A stretch of 49,411 nt of DNA, taken from positions 83,140 through 132,550 of the forward strand of contig MKUZ01000019.1 in assembly GCA_001899065.1 (NCBI GenBank), in the 5' to 3' direction. Position numbers and translations under genes: made by a program. How positions within the stretch are numbered: position 1 is the first letter of the stretch; each line of letters starts with the position of its first letter. Shown in pieces: positions 1,106-9,563 of this stretch. Below the pieces are notes generated by a model. The model was not told the DNA's origin. It did no database searches and saw only the letters and a program-made list of their open reading frames with translations. This DNA is from Devosia sp. 66-22. Its GTDB lineage: Bacteria > Pseudomonadota > Alphaproteobacteria > Rhizobiales > Devosiaceae.

Positions 1106-1870
1106 ATGAACCGCCGCCGGAAGATTTATGAAGGCAAGGCCAAGGATCTTTATGAGGGCCCCGAGCCCGGCACGCTCGTCCAGTATTTCAAGGACGACGC
1201 CACCGCCGGCGATGGCGCCAAGCATGAGATTCTCGACGGCAAGGGCGTGCTCAACAACCGCATTTCCGAGTTCGTGTTCACCAAGCTGAACATGCTGGGC
1301 ATCCCCACGCACTTCATCCGCCGCATCAACATGCGCGAGCAGCTGATCAAGGAAGTCGAGATCGTGCCGCTCGAAGTGGTGGTGCGCAATGTTGCCGCCG
1401 GCTCGCTGGTCAAGCGGCTCGGCCTCGAGGCCGGCACGCAGCTCCCCCGCTCGATCATCGAGTTCTATTACAAGGACGATGCGCTGCACGATCCGATGGT
1501 GTCGGAAGAGCACATCACGGCATTCGGCTGGGCCACCCCGCCCGAGCTCGACGACATCATGAGCCTGGCCGTCCGCGTCAACGACTTCCTCACCGGCCTG
1601 TTCATGGGCGTGGGCATCCAGCTCGTCGACTTCAAGATCGAAGTCGGCCGGCTCTATGAGGGCGACACGATGCGCATCGTGCTGGCCGACGAGATCAGCC
1701 CCGATTCCTGCCGGCTGTGGGACATCAAGACCCGCAACAAGCTCGACAAGGACCGCTTCCGCCAGGATCTGGGCGGCGTCGTCGAAGCCTATCGCGAAGT
1801 GGCGCAGCGGCTCGGCATTCTCGTCGAGAACGACAACGCGCTGACCACCGGGCCGCGTCTGGTTCAGTAA
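1106..1870 (+). CDS. purC: Phosphoribosylaminoimidazole-succinocarboxamide synthase (SAICAR synthetase)
   Basis: A 254-aa full-length SAICAR synthetase. It joins CAIR and aspartate using ATP, in cytosolic purine synthesis. The N-terminal [12 protein letters not shown] nucleotide loop, the central [15 protein letters not shown] block and [10 protein letters not shown] followed by [14 protein letters not shown] are all family signatures. The start ATG at 1106 has a weak AGGA 12 bases upstream and gives the normal [11 protein letters not shown] opening. It is the first pur gene in the window. The 250-bp gap shared with the divergent DUF1476 gene contains a 6-bp hairpin (CCCGGC at 1005-1010, GCCGGG at 1017-1022) that may belong to the leader. 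I see no purine riboswitch or clear PUR box. Confidence 0.97.
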
Positions 1871-1969: not shown

Positions 1970-3097
1970 ATGCACACGAGACGATCGGCGCTGGTTCTCG
2001 GGGCTGCTGGGGCGGCCGGAGCACTGCTGAGCGCGGGGCCCATGACAAAAGCCAGCCCATCGAGTGCCGAGCCCGACCCCCGGTTGGGCGACTTCCACAT
2101 GCCGCTCGAGTCGGCGCCGCACGCCCGGACCTTCATGCAATGGCCCGTCGCGCAGTCCGTGTATGGGCGCCGAGGGCTTGCGGGCGTGCAACGCTCGATC
2201 GTCGACATCGCCAACGCCATCGGGCAGTTCGAGCCGGTCGTGCTGCTCTCCGGCGACACGGGAAGGAGCGGCATCCGGGCCGGGCTGAGCAATGCGGTCG
2301 AGCTGTGGGACATCGCGACCGACGACCTGTGGTGTCGCGATTCCGGCCCGACCTTTGTCGTCGATGCGGCGGGTAACCTTGCCGTCGCGCACCTCCGCTT
2401 CAACGGCTGGGGGAACAAGCAGGGTTTTGCCAATGACGGCCTTGTCGCCGCCAGTGTTGCCGCACGTCTCGACCTGCCCCTGCTGGAAACCGGGCTCGTG
2501 GGCGAACAGGGCGGCGTCGAGCACGACGGCGCCGGGCTGCTGCTCGCGCATGAAAGCTGCTGGGTCAATCCTAACCGGAACACGCTGGACCGCGACACGA
2601 TTGCCGCGCGGCTGTGCCTCGCGCTGGGCGCGCAACAGATGATCTGGGCTCCCGGTTTGAAGGGCGAGGACATCACCGACTATCACATCGACGCGCTGGC
2701 GCGATTTGTCGGCCCGTCGACCGTGCTCATCCAGATCGACGACGCGCTCGATCCGGACGATCCCTGGTCGCGCGCGGCCCATCAGACGCTGCGGGCGCTG
2801 GAGGAGGCGCGCGACCTGGCGGGAAAGCCGCTGACGATCGTCAAGCTGCCCGAGCCCGAAACGGTGCGATCGAACGCGCCCGATTTCGTCTCCAGCTACA
2901 TCAACTATTACGTCTGCAACGGCGCCGTCATCGCCGCCCAGTTCGGCGACGCCCAGGCGGATGGCCTGGCGCGCGAGACGCTGGCCGATCTCTATCCCGG
3001 ACGCGAGATCGTTATGCTCGACATCGACCCGATCGGCGAGTCCGGCGGCGGCATCCATTGCGCGACGCAGCAGCAGCCGGCGCCGCGCCGCAGCTGA
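1970..3097 (+). CDS. Exported agmatine deiminase / peptidylarginine deiminase family protein
   Basis: A 375-aa member of the PAD_porph family (PF04371), whose members hydrolyse guanidino groups of agmatine or peptidyl arginine to ureido groups and ammonia. Catalytic landmarks are WCRDSGPTF near residue 120, the acid-histidine region ITDYHIDAL near 235, and the nucleophile cysteine in GGGIHCATQQQP near 365. Unlike cytosolic agmatine deiminases it starts with a twin-arginine-like signal (TRRSALVLGAAGAAGALL), so I infer export, possibly by Tat. It sits between purC and purS without an obvious functional link. Substrate cannot be told from sequence; agmatine is the most likely, and an arginine-peptide role is possible. 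Confidence 0.85.
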   Translation: MHTRRSALVLGAAGAAGALLSAGPMTKASPSSAEPDPRLGDFHMPLESAPHARTFMQWPVAQSVYGRRGLAGVQRSIVDIANAIGQFEPVVLLSGDTGRSGIRAGLSNAVELWDIATDDLWCRDSGPTFVVDAAGNLAVAHLRFNGWGNKQGFANDGLVAASVAARLDLPLLETGLVGEQGGVEHDGAGLLLAHESCWVNPNRNTLDRDTIAARLCLALGAQQMIWAPGLKGEDITDYHIDALARFVGPSTVLIQIDDALDPDDPWSRAAHQTLRALEEARDLAGKPLTIVKLPEPETVRSNAPDFVSSYINYYVCNGAVIAAQFGDAQADGLARETLADLYPGREIVMLDIDPIGESGGGIHCATQQQPAPRRS

Positions 3098-3193: not shown

Positions 3194-3433
3194 ATGAAAG
3201 CGCGCGTTACCGTCACCCTCAAATCCGGTGTGCTCGACCCGCAGGGCCAGGCCATCACGGGCTCCCTCAAGAGCCTCGGCTTCGATGGCGTCAGCGCCGT
3301 CCGGCAGGGCAAGATCTTCGACCTGGAGCTCGGCGACGCCGACCCGGCGGACGCGCGCCTCGCGCTCGCCGCCATGTGCGAGAAGCTGCTCGCCAACACC
3401 GTGATCGAGAACTACGCGATCGAGCTGGTCTGA
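3194..3433 (+). CDS. purS: Phosphoribosylformylglycinamidine synthase subunit PurS
   Basis: A 79-aa small subunit of the three-protein FGAM synthetase. PurS dimers bridge PurQ (glutaminase) and the short PurL. The family pattern is present from the start: KARVTVTLKSGVLDPQGQAI, then SLGFDGVSAVRQGKIFDLEL and a C-terminal NTVIENYAIELV. The ATG at 3194 follows GGAGGCGGGC, a good ribosome site; an upstream in-frame ATG at 3158 would add 12 unconserved residues. It is not adjacent to purQ or purL here: purQ follows 5.5 kb later and purL 11 kb later, which is unusual because these genes are normally contiguous in related genomes. Confidence 0.95.
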   Translation: MKARVTVTLKSGVLDPQGQAITGSLKSLGFDGVSAVRQGKIFDLELGDADPADARLALAAMCEKLLANTVIENYAIELV

Positions 3434-3440
3434 ACCCGGC

Positions 3441-4358
3441 TCAGGGCTTGAGGTCGGGCGGGACCGGCGGCGCCGCGTTCAGCAGCAGGATCGAGATGCG
3501 CTGGTTGGCCGACAGGTAGGGGTCGCTGGGCAGCAGCGGCTGCGTCGCGGCACGGCCGACGACAGATTCGACATGATCGTCGCCCAGGCCGAACTCGCCC
3601 AGGATGGTGCGCACCATGTTGGCGCGGTCGCTCGACAGTTCCCAGGCGCCGTAGCGCGGATCGTCATAGGTGCTGCCTGAGGCAGTGTGGCCCGAAATCC
3701 GGACCTGATTGGGCAGCTTGGCGAGGATCGGCGCGATCGAGGCAATCGCCTGGCGGGTGTATTCGAACGGATATTTCGAGCCTTCCGGGAACATCGGCCG
3801 GCCGACCGCGTCCATGATCTGGATGTCGAGCCCGTCGGCGGTTTCCTCGATGCGCAGATTGTCCTGCACGTCGGTGATGTTGGGGTTTTGCTGCCAGGCC
3901 TGCCGAATGCTCGCCGCGGCCCCCTCGAAGGCGCCGCGATAGTCGGACTGGATCGGCTTTTCGAGCGCGTTCTTGGTGACGTCATTGCCGCTCGCCACGC
4001 CCAGATTGCCCGAGCCGTCGTCGAGGCTGGCAAGCCCCTTGGTGCGCGCTTCGGCGACGCCGGGCTTGAGGTCCGAGCTGGCATTGGTGGTCTTGGCGCC
4101 CTCGGCATCGAACGCGCTGCCCGCCAGCACGCCGCCGGCGCCGCTGTTGGTTTCGCTGAGACTGGCCGGCGCGAAATAGTCGGCAAGGCCCTTCTTCTGC
4201 TCGGGCGTTGTCATCGAGATCAGCCAGAGCAGCAGGAAGAACGCCATCATGGCGGTCACGAAGTCGGCATAGGCGATCTTCCACGCCCCGCCATGGTGGC
4301 CGGCATGGCCGCCCTTCTTGACCTTCTTGATGATGATGGGCTGGTCGTAGGATGCCAC
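3441..4358 (-). CDS. motB: Flagellar motor stator protein MotB
   Basis: A 305-aa stator subunit. The N-terminal basic tail is followed by a single transmembrane helix around residues 28-48 with the proton-binding aspartate at D32 (AYADFVTAMMAFFLLLWLIS). A linker of about 100 residues leads to an OmpA-like peptidoglycan-binding domain in the C-terminal 130 residues, including ISGHTASG and ELSSDRANMVRTIL. MotB anchors the MotA ring to the wall so that proton flow drives the rotor. It lies 10 bases downstream of motA in an obvious two-gene operon. No other flagellar gene is in the window. It is convergent with purS, leaving only 7 bases between the two stop codons. Confidence 0.95.
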   Translation of the reverse strand: MASYDQPIIIKKVKKGGHAGHHGGAWKIAYADFVTAMMAFFLLLWLISMTTPEQKKGLADYFAPASLSETNSGAGGVLAGSAFDAEGAKTTNASSDLKPGVAEARTKGLASLDDGSGNLGVASGNDVTKNALEKPIQSDYRGAFEGAAASIRQAWQQNPNITDVQDNLRIEETADGLDIQIMDAVGRPMFPEGSKYPFEYTRQAIASIAPILAKLPNQVRISGHTASGSTYDDPRYGAWELSSDRANMVRTILGEFGLGDDHVESVVGRAATQPLLPSDPYLSANQRISILLLNAAPPVPPDLKP

Positions 4359-4368
4359 GGTGAACCCC

Positions 4369-5232
4369 TCAGGCGGCGGCCGGGAGGTCGGCAGTAGCCG
4401 CGTCGACTTCGGCGAAAGTCGGACGATCTTCGGACATCAGCGTCTTGCGGGCGAATTCGATGGCCATAACGGGGGCGTAGCCCGAGATGTGGGCCAAGAG
4501 GCCGGTCTTCATGGCGAGGTAATATTTGGACTCGGACTCGTAGATGTTGCGCAGCGCCTGCGCCATCGGCCCGAAGAAGCCATAGGCGACGAACACGCCC
4601 AGGAACGTCCCCACGAGCGCGCCGCCGATCATGTGGCCGAGCACTTCGGGCGGCTCGGAGATCGAGCCCATGGTCTTGATCACGCCCAGCACGGCGGCGA
4701 CGATGCCCAGCGCCGGGGTACCATCGGCCAGCGACTGCACGGCGCTGACGAGGCGCTGCCCTTCCTGGTGGTGCACCTCGAGCTCTTCGTCCATCAGCGC
4801 TTCGATTTCGTGCACATTGTTGGTGCCCAGCGTCATCATGCGCATGTAATCGCAGAGGAATTCCACCGCGTGGTGGTTGGCGGCAAACTTGGGGAAGCGC
4901 GCGAAAATGGTCGACGATTCAGGGTTCTCGACGTGCTGCTCGAGGGCGAGCACGCCGCGGGTCTGGACCAGCTTGAACAGCGTGAACTGGAGCCCCAGCA
5001 GCTCGATATAGGCCTCTTTATTGTAGCGCGAGCCGCGCAGCAGCGTGCCGAACACGCCCAGCGATTTCTTCAGCACCGGCCCGGTGTTGCCGATGATGTA
5101 GGCGCCCATGGCGGCGCCCAGGATAATGACGGCTTCGAAGGGCTGGATCAGCACCTCCAGATGGCCGCCCATGGCCATGTAGCCGCCAATCACGGAGGCC
5201 ACGACGACGACAATGCCAATGATCAGACGCAT
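4369..5232 (-). CDS. motA: Flagellar motor stator protein MotA
   Basis: A 287-aa four-helix stator protein that forms the proton channel with MotB. Two N-terminal helices, a cytoplasmic loop carrying conserved charged residues (about 85-165, with HEIEALMDEE), then the second helix pair beginning TPALGIVAAVLGVIKTMG, where P173 is the proline essential for torque. C-terminal IEFARKTL is also typical. The start ATG at 5232 opens MRLIIGIVVVVASVIGGY as expected. It is the first gene of the motA-motB unit. Its 190-bp upstream region is shared with a divergent micropeptide gene and contains CACCGGT and CCGCCTTA (minus-strand reading), motifs that recur upstream of the second micropeptide. Confidence 0.96.
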   Translation of the reverse strand: MRLIIGIVVVVASVIGGYMAMGGHLEVLIQPFEAVIILGAAMGAYIIGNTGPVLKKSLGVFGTLLRGSRYNKEAYIELLGLQFTLFKLVQTRGVLALEQHVENPESSTIFARFPKFAANHHAVEFLCDYMRMMTLGTNNVHEIEALMDEELEVHHQEGQRLVSAVQSLADGTPALGIVAAVLGVIKTMGSISEPPEVLGHMIGGALVGTFLGVFVAYGFFGPMAQALRNIYESESKYYLAMKTGLLAHISGYAPVMAIEFARKTLMSEDRPTFAEVDAATADLPAAA

Positions 5233-5424
5233 GAAGTACCGGGAAACACTCGAAAATCGCCGCCGAACCCTAGAGGTAGTCGGTTAGCGCTAAGGCGGGG
5301 TAAACGACCGGTGCGACTTTCGAGTCACAGGGCGGCGTTTTCACGCCAGCCATGCGCCGATCGCCATATCCGTTACGCACGAATCCTGTAGATCAGCCGC
5401 TCCCTCTCGACGTGCGTAGCCGAC

Positions 5425-5508
5425 ATGCTAAAGACCTTCTCGCTGTCCATCCTGTTCTTCCTCGCCCTCGGGCTGGTGGTCGCGGCTTACGCAACCATCC
5501 CGGTCTGA
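5425..5508 (+). CDS. Micropeptide A, 27 aa, single transmembrane helix
   Basis: A 27-codon reading frame from ATG 5425 to TGA 5506-5508. It begins MLKTFSLSILFFLALG and is one hydrophobic helix with a lysine at position 3 and a short polar end (ATIPV). A second gene 1.4 kb downstream (6891-6980) encodes a clear paralog that shares KTFSLS-LFF-LGL--AAYA--P. Conservation of protein with third-base differences argues that both are translated. No good Shine-Dalgarno precedes either start. The stop lies 16 bases before the glycosyltransferase start, so the two are probably on one message. Function unknown; I infer a small inner-membrane accessory protein. I know of no named family for it. Confidence 0.65.
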   Translation: MLKTFSLSILFFLALGLVVAAYATIPV

Positions 5509-5524
5509 GGCAAACGGAGCCGAA

Positions 5525-6781
5525 TTGGCTCGTATCGCCGTCCTTAGTGTCCCGGCCTATGGCCATCTCAATCCCGTGCTGCCGATCGTGCGCAAGCTGG
5601 TGCAGCGGGGCCATGACGTCACCGTGTTCAACGAGGCGAGCTTTGCGCCGCTGATCACGGCGACCGGCGCGCGCTTTGCCGCCTATCCGCCGGTGATCCA
5701 TCTCGAGGACTTCTCGCGCACCCTCAAGGACGGCGACATGATCGCCTGGATCGAGATGATCCTGGGCGCAACCGGCCCGCTGCTGGGCGCGCTGACGCCC
5801 CGGCTCCGAACCGAACGTCCCGACCTGATCGTGTTCGACGGCATCGCGGTGTGGGGCGAAATGCTCGCCTCCAAGCTCAAGCTGCCCTCGGTGGCGATTT
5901 CGACCACCTTCATGTCCGACGCCTTCGCCCGCACCGCCGGCGAGGTGGCGCACGACACGCTCAGCATCGCCCGGCTGATCCCCAACTTTCTGTGGGATGT
6001 GACGCGCATCTTCATCCACGGCGTGCTGCACCTGCCGCATACGCTGCCGCTGGTGCCGCGGCGCGGCGACGTCACGCTGATGCTGACCAGCCGGCAGTTC
6101 CATCCGCCCAGCCGGCGGCGCGACGAGCCCGACTTCATTTTCGTGGGCTGCTCGATCGACCCCGGCACGCGGCGCGAAACCTTCGACTTCGATCGCTTTG
6201 ACGGCCGCCCCCTGCTCTATGTGTCGCTGGGCACGCTGCATCACGGCAACGCGGCGTTCTTCGATACCTGCATCGCGGCCTTTGGCGATTTCCTGGGCCA
6301 GGTGCTGGTTTCGGTGGGTCGCGGCACGGACCTCGACCGCTACGCCGACGCCCCCGCGAACTTCCTGTTCGCCGAGGCCGTACCGCAACTCGCCGTGCTC
6401 GAGCGCACCAGCGTCTTCCTCACCCATGGCGGGCTCAACAGCGTGCACGAGGCGCTCTGGCACGGCGTGCCGATGGTGGCCGTGCCGCAGCAGATCGAGC
6501 AGCTTCACAACGCCGAGGCGATGGAGGCGGCCGGCGCCGGTCTCGTCATCGACGCCGAGGCCAAGGGCCATCCGGTCACTGCCGAGGCACTGCGAGCCGC
6601 CGTCGACAGGGTGATGATGGAGCGCGCGGTCTACGCCGCCGCGGCCGCCCGGATCGGCGCCTCGCTGCGCGAGGGCGGCGGCATCGACGAGGCCGCCAGC
6701 ATCATCGAGCGGCAGGCGCTCGGCCGTTCAGGCAGCGTTCAGCCCACGGCTGCGATAGAGGCTCCCGTCGAGCGGGTGTGA
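5525..6781 (+). CDS. GT1-family (MGT/UGT-like) glycosyltransferase
   Basis: A 418-aa GT-B fold enzyme. The N-terminal acceptor domain starts IAVLSVPAYGHLNPVLPIVR, typical of macrolide and lipid glycosyltransferases of family GT1. The C-terminal donor domain includes LLYVSLGTLHHGN near residue 235 and the nucleotide-sugar site FLTHGGLNSVHEALWHGVPM near 300. It would transfer a sugar from a UDP- or dTDP-sugar onto a lipid or small hydrophobic acceptor at the inner face of the membrane. The start is TTG 5525 with CGGAG 8 bases upstream. It is flanked by two paralogous micropeptides and followed by an acyltransferase-3 protein, which suggests a glycolipid or modified envelope product. The acceptor is unknown. 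Confidence 0.88.
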   Translation: MARIAVLSVPAYGHLNPVLPIVRKLVQRGHDVTVFNEASFAPLITATGARFAAYPPVIHLEDFSRTLKDGDMIAWIEMILGATGPLLGALTPRLRTERPDLIVFDGIAVWGEMLASKLKLPSVAISTTFMSDAFARTAGEVAHDTLSIARLIPNFLWDVTRIFIHGVLHLPHTLPLVPRRGDVTLMLTSRQFHPPSRRRDEPDFIFVGCSIDPGTRRETFDFDRFDGRPLLYVSLGTLHHGNAAFFDTCIAAFGDFLGQVLVSVGRGTDLDRYADAPANFLFAEAVPQLAVLERTSVFLTHGGLNSVHEALWHGVPMVAVPQQIEQLHNAEAMEAAGAGLVIDAEAKGHPVTAEALRAAVDRVMMERAVYAAAAARIGASLREGGGIDEAASIIERQALGRSGSVQPTAAIEAPVERV

Positions 6782-6890
6782 TCGTTACCGGTCAATTAAC
6801 CACACCGGTGCAATCCGCCTTAACCGATCGTCCCTCATAACCGCCCGGCGCTGCGTCAACGCGCCCTCAGACCAGTAAGCCGGCCCTCAA

Positions 6891-6980
6891 ATGATCAAGA
6901 CCTTCTCCCTCTCCGTCCTGTTTTTCCTGACGCTCGGCCTGATGTTCGCCGCCTACGCGTCGGTGCCCACCGGCCTCTGA
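6891..6980 (+). CDS. Micropeptide B, 29 aa, paralog of micropeptide A
   Basis: A 29-codon frame from ATG 6891 to TGA 6978-6980. It begins MIKTFSLSVLFFLTLG and continues into FAAYASVPTGL. Aligned without gaps to the 27-aa product at 5425-5508 it is identical at 17 of 27 positions and most other changes are conservative (I/L, V/I, S/T). It is a single predicted transmembrane helix with one lysine near the N-terminus. It lies 109 bases after the glycosyltransferase and 78 bases before the acyltransferase. The upstream stretch contains TTAACC twice (6798-6803 and 6820-6825). No strong ribosome site. Function unknown. Confidence 0.65.
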   Translation: MIKTFSLSVLFFLTLGLMFAAYASVPTGL

Positions 6981-7058
6981 TCGCTACAATCCTTCCCATT
7001 AAGCAAATCGGGTAACCCTCGCAGCGACAAGCGCGAGCGTTAACGACCGCCTTGCCGT

Positions 7059-8171
7059 ATGTCCGGGATCACCAACCTGGATTATGCGGCAATGTCAGGT
7101 CACACCGAACGTCTCGACTGGGTCGATTCCGCCAAGGGGATGTCCATCATCCTCGTGGTGATGATGTATTCTGTCTTCAATGTGGGCCAGGATGCCGAAG
7201 GCGTGGGGTTGTTCCACTACGTCATCGGCTTCGCCACGCCCTTCCGGATGCCGGAATTCTTCCTGATCTCGGGGCTGTTCCTCGACCAGGTGCTGGCCCG
7301 CAACTGGAAGGCCTATGCCGACCGGCGCGTCGTCCACTACCTCTATTTCTACGCCCTGTGGGCGGTGATCCACATCGTGCTCAAGGTCGGCATCCTGAGC
7401 GCCGATCCGCTGGGCGCGGCGAACTATCTGCTGTGGGCCGTCATCGAGCCCTATGGCGTGCTGTGGTTCATCTACCTGCTCGCCGCCTTCAGTCTCGTCG
7501 CCAAGATCGCCTACGAGCTGCGCATCCCGCGCTGGGTGGTGCTGGCGATCGGCGCGGCGCTGCAGATGCTGCCGATCACCACGGGCAGCTATCTCGTCGA
7601 CCAGTTCGCCGAGTACTTCGTCTACTTCTACGCCGGCTACATGTTCGCGCCGTGGATCTTCCGCCTCGTCGACCTTGCGCTCCGGCATGTCGGCGTAACC
7701 CTCGCCGCGCTCCTCCTCTATGCCGTGGTCAACGCCGCGCTGGTGTTCGCGCCCGGCTATGCGGTGCTGCCCGAGCACATCCAGATGGGCACTGCCGCCC
7801 TCCCCGGCCTCCACCTCGCCCTCGCCCTGATCGGCTCCCTGGCGCTGTGTGTCACCGCCGGGCTCCTGTCGCGCCTCCCCTTCATGGGGTGGCTGAGCTG
7901 GCTGGGCGAGCGCTCGATCGTTGTCTACCTCGCCTTCGTGCTGCCGATGTCCTTCGCCCGCATCGCACTGGGCAAGCTCGGCCTGATCGACGATGTGACG
8001 CTGTCGAGCCTCATCGTGATGGTGTTTGCCATCGGCGCGTCGCTCGCTCTCTATCTGCTCGTGCAGTGGACCGGCCGCGGCAAGTTCCTGTTCGAGCGGC
8101 CGGCCTGGGCGCACCTGCCCGGCACCAAGGGCAGCCGCAGCTACCAGCCCGCCGCCGTTCCGGCAGAGTGA
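7059..8171 (+). CDS. Acyltransferase family 3 / OpgC-like membrane protein
   Basis: A 370-aa integral membrane protein with about ten predicted helices. The opening ERLDWVDSAKGMSIILVVMM is the classic acyltransferase-3 (PF01757) start, in which a conserved aspartate and lysine (RLDWVDSAKG) precede the first helix. RMPEFFLISGLFL matches the second signature. Such proteins move acyl or succinyl groups onto sugars of polysaccharides, glucans or glycolipids at the membrane. ATG 7059 is chosen; ATG 7092 (MSGHTERLDW) is an equally good start, and neither has a clear ribosome site. The neighbouring glycosyltransferase fits a two-step decoration of one envelope molecule, which is inference from position. 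Confidence 0.85.
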   Translation: MSGITNLDYAAMSGHTERLDWVDSAKGMSIILVVMMYSVFNVGQDAEGVGLFHYVIGFATPFRMPEFFLISGLFLDQVLARNWKAYADRRVVHYLYFYALWAVIHIVLKVGILSADPLGAANYLLWAVIEPYGVLWFIYLLAAFSLVAKIAYELRIPRWVVLAIGAALQMLPITTGSYLVDQFAEYFVYFYAGYMFAPWIFRLVDLALRHVGVTLAALLLYAVVNAALVFAPGYAVLPEHIQMGTAALPGLHLALALIGSLALCVTAGLLSRLPFMGWLSWLGERSIVVYLAFVLPMSFARIALGKLGLIDDVTLSSLIVMVFAIGASLALYLLVQWTGRGKFLFERPAWAHLPGTKGSRSYQPAAVPAE

Positions 8172-8897: not shown

Positions 8898-9563
8898 ATG
8901 AAATCAGCCGTTGTCGTCTTTCCGGGCCTCAATCGCGACCGCGACATGATCGCGGCGCTGACCACCATCGGGGGCGAGCCGCCGGTCGTGGTGTGGCACA
9001 AGGACACCGACATCCCCGATGTCGATCTCATCGTCATCCCGGGTGGATTCTCCTATGGTGATTACCTGCGCGCCGGCGCCATCGCCGCCCGCTCGCCGAT
9101 CATGCAGGCAATCCGCGGCAAGGCCTCCCGCGGGGTCCATGTGCTGGGCGTCTGCAACGGCTTCCAGATCCTCACCGAGGCAGGCCTTCTGCCGGGCGTG
9201 CTGATGCGCAACGCATCGCTGCGCTTCGTCTGCCGCGAGGTGCGGCTCAAGGTCGAGAACCACCGCACCCGCTTCACCGGCGGTTACCGCGAGGGCCAGG
9301 TCATCACGACGCCGGTCGCCCATCACGACGGCAACTATTTCGTCGATGCCTCGACGCTGAAATCGCTCGAAGACAATGAGCAGATCGCCTTCACCTACGC
9401 CGAGGGGACCAACCCCAACGGCTCGGTCGCCGACATCGCCGGCGTGTTCAACCGCGACAAGAACGTGCTGGGCCTGATGCCACACCCCGAGAACCTGATC
9501 GAGAGCGCGCATGGCGGCCTCGACGGCCGCGCCCTGTTCTCGAACCTGCTGCAGGTCGCGTGA
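8898..9563 (+). CDS. purQ: Phosphoribosylformylglycinamidine synthase subunit PurQ (glutaminase)
   Basis: A 221-aa class I glutamine amidotransferase that supplies ammonia to PurL in FGAM synthesis. The nucleophile is C86 in [13 protein letters not shown]; the His-Glu pair is in GLMPHPENL near the C-terminus. The opening [16 protein letters not shown] and [15 protein letters not shown] are PurQ-specific. The ATG at 8898 gives the standard N-terminus; an upstream in-frame start at 8862 adds 12 unconserved residues. It needs PurS and the short PurL, both encoded in this window but not adjacent. It is convergent with the RNA methyltransferase gene, whose end lies 4 bases away. Confidence 0.96.

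Follow-up and report, generated by a model that had tools for sequence, protein, structure and literature searches.

The stretch of DNA under study, referred to below as the window, comprises 49,411 nucleotides from Devosia sp. 66-22 and contains two very short open reading frames, PEP1 and PEP2 (Table 1). The initial annotation had placed a GT1 glycosyltransferase between the two frames and an acyltransferase-3 after them, and the profile matches bear this out. Only 16 nt separate the stop codon of PEP1 from the start of the glycosyltransferase gene, the product of which has solved relatives that include YjiC and the oleandomycin glycosyltransferases. The acyltransferase has no match among PDB sequences (E ≤ 0.01). 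The same region carries purC and, presumably, purS and purQ, and homologues of purQ are found downstream in the relatives as well.

Table 1. Genes and sequence elements of the peptide locus, with positions counted from the first letter of the window.
Feature	Position	Strand	Basis or remark
purC	1106..1870	+	TIGR00081 above cut-off
Presumed agmatine-deiminase-like gene	1970..3097		Lies in the purC–purS interval here; name assumed from sequence
Presumed purS	3194..3433	+	Name assumed from sequence
Presumed motB-like gene	3441..4358	-	Name assumed from sequence
Presumed motA-like gene	4369..5232	-	Name assumed from sequence
PEP1, micropeptide copy 1	5425..5508	+	27 aa, one hydrophobic helix; encodes MLKTFSLSILFFLALGLVVAAYATIPV
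GT1 / MGT-type glycosyltransferase	5525..6781	+	PF00201; TIGR01426 above cut-off
Inverted repeat GGCGC-N9-GCGCC	6847..6865	+	Upstream of PEP2, found by eye
PEP2, micropeptide copy 2	6891..6980	+	29 aa; encodes MIKTFSLSVLFFLTLGLMFAAYASVPTGL
TTAA-N9-GTAA motif	6999..7015	+	Ahead of the acyltransferase
Acyltransferase-3 (Acyl_transf_3)	7059..8171	+	PF01757
Presumed purQ	8898..9563	+	Start placed at a string of ten protein letters (not shown); name assumed

The two peptides share 70% identity across 27 residues (E = 6.2e-8 in a search of their own genome), and no third copy was detected in this genome at E ≤ 10. Between the two coding sequences, 8 differences fall at first, 1 at second and 13 at third codon positions. 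Both frames are genuine and are the sole two copies in the genome. They had been described as a near-identical, paralogous pair of single-helix peptides; the pairing stands, while "near-identical" is too strong a term for 70% identity. The claim that the third-position differences reflect selection on the protein is sustained by the codon tally and by the low dN/dS values given below.

The host family of the peptide is read as Devosiaceae. In a template scan over a set of 136 genomes of this family, the peptide is present in 126 of the 128 loci examined; the remaining eight genomes, which lie outside the scan, are G006, with a weak match, and seven in which no purS was detected. Most of the regions were fetched on a match to the peptide, so this presence count is partly selected, while adjacency to purS was measured independently. 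A search with PEP2 matches 128 of the 136 genomes at E ≤ 10, many of them far more strongly and some at the level of chance. More than one copy occurs in 15 of the 126 loci, all within the genus of the window.

The two examined loci that lack the peptide differ in kind. G082 (L092), a genome of 2.0 Mb, retains a broken remnant after purS, and its acyltransferase gene is broken too. G105 (L094) has purS and the acyltransferase with no recognisable peptide, and the slot after its purS is occupied by a membrane protein of about 120 residues (FVALLHVGFLVLEMFLW...). A protein similar to the latter follows directly after the peptide in G003 (L074).

One weak match aside, the peptide was found in this family only. 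Among 397 genomes across the order, the matches at E ≤ 0.1 are 21 family members and G380 only, although equally divergent relatives elsewhere could have been missed, because the most divergent members of the family themselves score E 0.1–0.3 or escape a single-sequence search. The match in G380 (L051; E 0.07) falls inside a 177-residue frame and was judged to be due to chance; the same genome has a match above the cut-off to the profile NF041637, discussed below. A pattern scan of 84,980 species genomes gave 72 candidate stretches and, from these, 51 confirmed loci, 43 of them labelled Devosia and eight labelled as Hyphomicrobiales, Rhizobiales, Alphaproteobacteria or Phyllobacteriaceae bacteria. 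In some 27 loci of other families no such peptide lies behind purS, the small hydrophobic frames there being of the NF041637 type only. A phage or viral origin was also considered and rejected after a tblastn search with PEP2 of 50,697 phage records, which gave no match, and a scan of viral contigs, which gave 28 pattern matches and no relative among them. The micropeptide family that had been suspected in this lineage is thus real in 126 of 128 examined loci, and the tblastn comparison that the initial annotation recommended finds homologues throughout Devosiaceae and, across the order, one weak match besides.

Selection on the peptide is strongly purifying. Calculated by NG86 from pooled pairs, with no tree correction and with dS partly saturated, dN/dS is 0.168 for all members; by genus it is 0.108 for that of the window, 0.077 for the largest and 0.175 for a third, while each of the wrong readings tested (+1, +2 and reverse complement) gives 1.3 or more. 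In the four glycosyltransferase-bearing genomes of the window's genus the values are 0.128 for PEP1 and 0.048 for PEP2; the extra copy in 11 other congeners is held more loosely (0.40). The Ka/Ks analysis proposed earlier accordingly returns purifying selection, at 0.05–0.18 in frame against at least 1.3 in the wrong readings. Chance frames are excluded, because 126 of 128 examined genomes carry the peptide and dN/dS is low in frame only, and the product is almost certainly a real, translated and conserved protein.

Its length (26–30 residues, from an ATG start) is nearly constant over the 126 loci. With the tyrosine near the C-terminus numbered 0, Phe(−11) occurs in all 124 aligned members, Leu(−15) in 122, and Ala(−1), Val(+3) and Pro(+4) are nearly invariant, like Leu(−15), in 118–122 members. 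Tyr(0) is constant in the 124 aligned members and present in all 126 peptides, although the anchor pattern used for alignment demands Tyr or His at this position and limits positions +2 to +4, so that constancy there is partly built in. The peptides of G131 and G005 were missed by this pattern and are left out of the conservation and dN/dS tables.

All 126 peptides have a net charge of +1 or +2 in residues 1–6, none of Lys, Arg, Asp, Glu, His, Asn or Gln in residues 7–21, and a charge of 0 or −1 from residue 19 onward. Every member therefore shows the uncharged hydrophobic stretch and positive-inside arrangement of a single-pass membrane micropeptide. Such an arrangement is that of a single helix whose N-terminus lies inside, and the sequences make it very probable that the product is a single-pass membrane peptide of this topology. 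The motif AYA/SVP near the C-terminus resembles a signal peptidase site. A secreted, cleaved peptide was nevertheless down-weighted, since positions −3 and −1 of such a site vary (Pro, Ser and Gly occur) and the fixed residues are the Tyr and the Pro.

Micropeptides that serve as membrane subunits, such as KdpF, CydX, AcrZ and MgtS, have about 30–50 residues and a single pass, and are often encoded beside enzymes or within their operons. The Devosiaceae peptide is similar in size and in its single pass; however, no similarity was found for it in Pfam, NCBIfam or PDB sequences. Neither of the window peptides has a match in these three collections, and among 20 family members a single one has an NCBIfam match, to BcsF, at the level of chance (E 0.13). 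Searches of PMC for a small membrane protein linked to purS or known from Devosia gave only papers whose titles point to other subjects, and the main text of a study of the small proteome of S. meliloti (PMC10117765) makes no mention of purQ, purS, phosphoribosyl or purine.

The position of the gene is stable. The peptide lies directly 3' of purS, with its start 51–190 nt past the end of that gene, in 122 of the 126 loci (median gap 64 nt over all 126). Clustering of the genes of 41 loci, which were named by homology with the genes of the window, gives the usual order purC – (purS) – peptide – acyltransferase – purQ – purL; a convergent gene comes next after the peptide in three of them (L079, L089 and L090). 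The four loci in which the peptide has left purS are the glycosyltransferase-bearing genomes of the window's own genus (G000, G090, G092 and G096), where it is still conserved.

In the window, purS and the peptide are displaced from each other by about 2 kb, and the motAB genes and the PEP1–glycosyltransferase block lie between purS and PEP2. PEP2 is probably the ancestral, orthologous copy, because the sequence upstream of it resembles that upstream of the purS-adjacent copy in congeners: CCTTAA, ATAAC, a GCGC repeat and CAGTAA are common to both, as judged by eye and not in every genome. The sequence upstream of PEP1 is, also by eye, unlike this junction. On the simplest reading, motAB and the PEP1–glycosyltransferase block came between purS and the ancestral peptide, and two copies would flank the glycosyltransferase because this block sits ahead of the probably ancestral PEP2.

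A protein of similar habit is known from other families of the order. NCBIfam NF041637 (FGAM_small_mem) describes the "phosphoribosylformylglycinamidine synthase-associated small membrane protein" of Hyphomicrobiales, which, like the Devosiaceae peptide, is short, has one hydrophobic stretch preceded by positively charged residues, and is encoded directly 3' of purS. The NF041637 proteins differ in being 35–64 residues long, with a longer polar N-terminal part, and their genes usually lie closer to purS. The profile scores above its cut-off in 61 of the 397 genomes of the order, which belong to eight other families, and in none of the 136 Devosiaceae genomes. Among 27 loci picked by an NF041637-type match (26 of them over the cut-off) and read with the start set at the first start codon after purS, the gene lies 3' of purS in all 27; it starts 2–63 nt past the matched end of purS in 26, and 8 nt ahead of that end in the remaining one. 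In L101, L105 and L107, three of seven such loci read, purQ starts 132–153 nt past purS, so there is no acyltransferase between the two.

The two groups do not appear to be related. At a cut-off of 40 bits the NF041637 profile matches none of 20 Devosiaceae members, both window peptides included, and hhalign of the peptide against NF041637 (20 against 15 sequences) gives a probability of 0.5% over a single aligned column. Since the profiles fail to align and no family genome scores above the cut-off, the peptide is placed outside NF041637, in the same slot.

The shared slot could be no more than a handy site of insertion, because the purS–purQ gap elsewhere holds quite different genes or nothing. 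Across the order (L099–L126) this gap is empty, or contains an NF041637-type gene, or encodes secreted-like proteins of about 150–190 residues. The peptide would in that case have an independent role in the membrane, for example in stress response or membrane stability, and be housed behind purS only as a housekeeping insertion site. The assorted occupants of the gap in other families fit this explanation, as do the four genomes of the window's genus in which the peptide persists at a distance from purS and the loci with more than one copy; however, free relocation would not lead one to expect a purS-adjacent position kept in 122 of 126 loci. An independent role is considered unlikely.

The neighbouring enzymes offer a different partner. 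It had been proposed that the peptides serve the glycosyltransferase/acyltransferase pair as small subunits or as regulators, being accessory to the acyltransferase-3 and, in this lineage, to the glycosyltransferase as well. A search with the acyltransferase (ACYLTRANSFERASE) finds a match in 125 of the 136 family genomes, among them G082, where the copy is broken, and G107, where it is divergent. In 100 of the 126 loci the gene follows the peptide on the same strand, and some of the other 26 are represented by a fetched stretch too short to show it. In four genomes PEP1 ends 15–18 nt ahead of the glycosyltransferase. All five genes for this enzyme found in the family (E ≤ 1e-50) are at the peptide locus, the fifth being in another genus (G002), where the gene follows a single peptide. 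The joint decay in G082 also fits such a partnership.

The association is, however, not obligate. The glycosyltransferase is confined to these five of 136 genomes; G052, G072, G092, G101 and G125 retain the peptide with no acyltransferase match at E ≤ 1e-10, G105 shows the reverse, and the acyltransferase of G131 and that of G106 lie on a separate contig from the peptide. Two DNA elements further set the genes apart. In genus g15, a terminator-like GC-rich hairpin followed by a run of T lies 30–46 nt past the stop codon of the peptide in 12 of 13 genomes. The stems of these hairpins (L086, L087, L038 and others) differ between loci and close the peptide unit, and a generic terminator scanner run on one locus reported that g15 stem on the minus strand only. 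The acyltransferase, for its part, has an upstream motif of its own: 46 of 100 loci have a TTAA-N9-[TG]TAA-like sequence within the 150 nt before it, often about 60 nt before its start, whereas mononucleotide shuffling predicts 0.4. Among 14 loci in which other DNA holds the two genes more than 250 nt apart, 5 have the motif ahead of the acyltransferase and none has it behind the peptide. This motif might be an operator or a promoter element of a regulator.

The proposed role in the pair is thus left unsupported by the distribution of either enzyme, and the hairpin between the genes, the separate motif and the steadier company of purS speak against it. The copies sought beside such genes are found with the acyltransferase, downstream in 100 of 126 loci, and with GT1 in five genomes. 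The acyltransferase and the peptide are neighbours and not a fixed pair, which weakens the acyltransferase idea, and the glycosyltransferase idea applies to a few genomes only. The peptide is probably not a dedicated subunit of either enzyme, and an accessory or regulatory role towards the acyltransferase, and in this lineage the glycosyltransferase, is quite unlikely; a looser tie may exist. What survives of the initial interpretation is a lineage-wide family of single-helix membrane peptides under purifying selection, and not the function assigned to it.

The sequence ahead of the gene has features of its own. In the largest genus (67 loci), a 5-bp stem can be drawn in the 50 nt before the ATG, with 97.6% of its cells paired, and in most of these loci an AGGA follows the stem about 10 nt ahead of the ATG. 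Compensatory changes occur in three of the five pairs, although they amount to few events (six cells), and none of 500 shuffles reaches as high a value in either paired cells or covariation score. RNAalifold recovered the same stem unprompted from the alignment of this genus. When the partner strand is slid by −2, the number of both-sided changes is equal, but only 50.3% of the cells are paired.

Only this covariation speaks for the stem, because the 48 nt before 141 copies fold no better than shuffled sequences (mean z −0.41; downstream control −0.71). The stem could equally well reflect a protein-bound dyad in the DNA. The inverted repeat upstream of PEP2 (Table 1) is perhaps the counterpart of the covarying stem, although the minimum-energy fold of the PEP2 leader favours other pairs. 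A wider hairpin regulon was considered and rejected: the pattern occurs 10–18 times per genome in six genomes, against 0–9 times for a reversed control, and is not specific to the gene. Rfam gives no match at E ≤ 1 between positions 3000 and 9500 of the window, and a sigma-70 scan of positions 5200–7200 predicts no promoter.

A short frame conserved towards its C-terminus, with a covarying stem just upstream of it in the largest genus and an attenuator-like hairpin between peptide and acyltransferase in one genus, recalls a leader or arrest peptide acting in cis on the gene that follows. Such control would call for a constant target and a conserved terminator; however, what comes next may be the acyltransferase, the glycosyltransferase, purQ or a convergent gene, and a terminator-like hairpin was detected in only 14 of the 126 loci. 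The uniformly hydrophobic stretch and constant charge pattern also suit a membrane product better, and a leader peptide is very improbable. The peptide also resembles the hydrophobic membrane toxins of type I toxin–antitoxin pairs in size and hydrophobicity, and the adjacent copies in the window's genus would fit such a toxin. This reading is very unlikely, as such toxins are generally patchy in distribution and the peptide occurs in 126 of 128 examined genomes, mostly at one locus and under strong purifying selection.

Most probably, the product is a small protein of the inner membrane that belongs to the purine locus and is so far uncharacterised. Both frames of the window are copies of one Devosiaceae small-protein gene, which would encode a single-pass inner-membrane peptide of 26–30 residues with its N-terminus in the cytosol and a C-terminal Y-[AG]-[ST]-V-P placed at the outer face. 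The gene, which lies just 3' of purS within a purC-purS-[peptide]-(acyltransferase)-purQ-purL cluster in nearly all examined relatives, would be expressed together with the purC-purS unit or immediately behind it, from a short leader that carries a hairpin and an AGGA ribosome site. In the least certain step, the peptide would act in trans as a small partner or anchor in the membrane, linking the PurS-containing FGAM synthase (PurSQL) either to the inner membrane itself or to an enzyme there, and would have the genomic role that the unrelated NF041637 protein has in other Hyphomicrobiales. This link to PurSQL, suggested by position and by the parallel with NF041637, is possible but doubtful. 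Taken as a whole, the explanation that the peptide is a membrane partner of PurSQL at the Devosiaceae purine locus is tentative, plausible while somewhat short of probable. That the peptide and NF041637 came to the slot behind purS independently, both tethering PurSQL to the inner membrane, is a rather speculative extension of it.

The peptide gene is strongly conserved in almost every examined Devosiaceae genome and matches no family library tried, perhaps because it has no more than 30 codons. Its position raises the question of why small membrane proteins stay behind purS in Hyphomicrobiales, and whether a step of de novo purine synthesis is bound to the membrane. If both families do tether PurSQL, this order would have a membrane-anchored step of purine synthesis.
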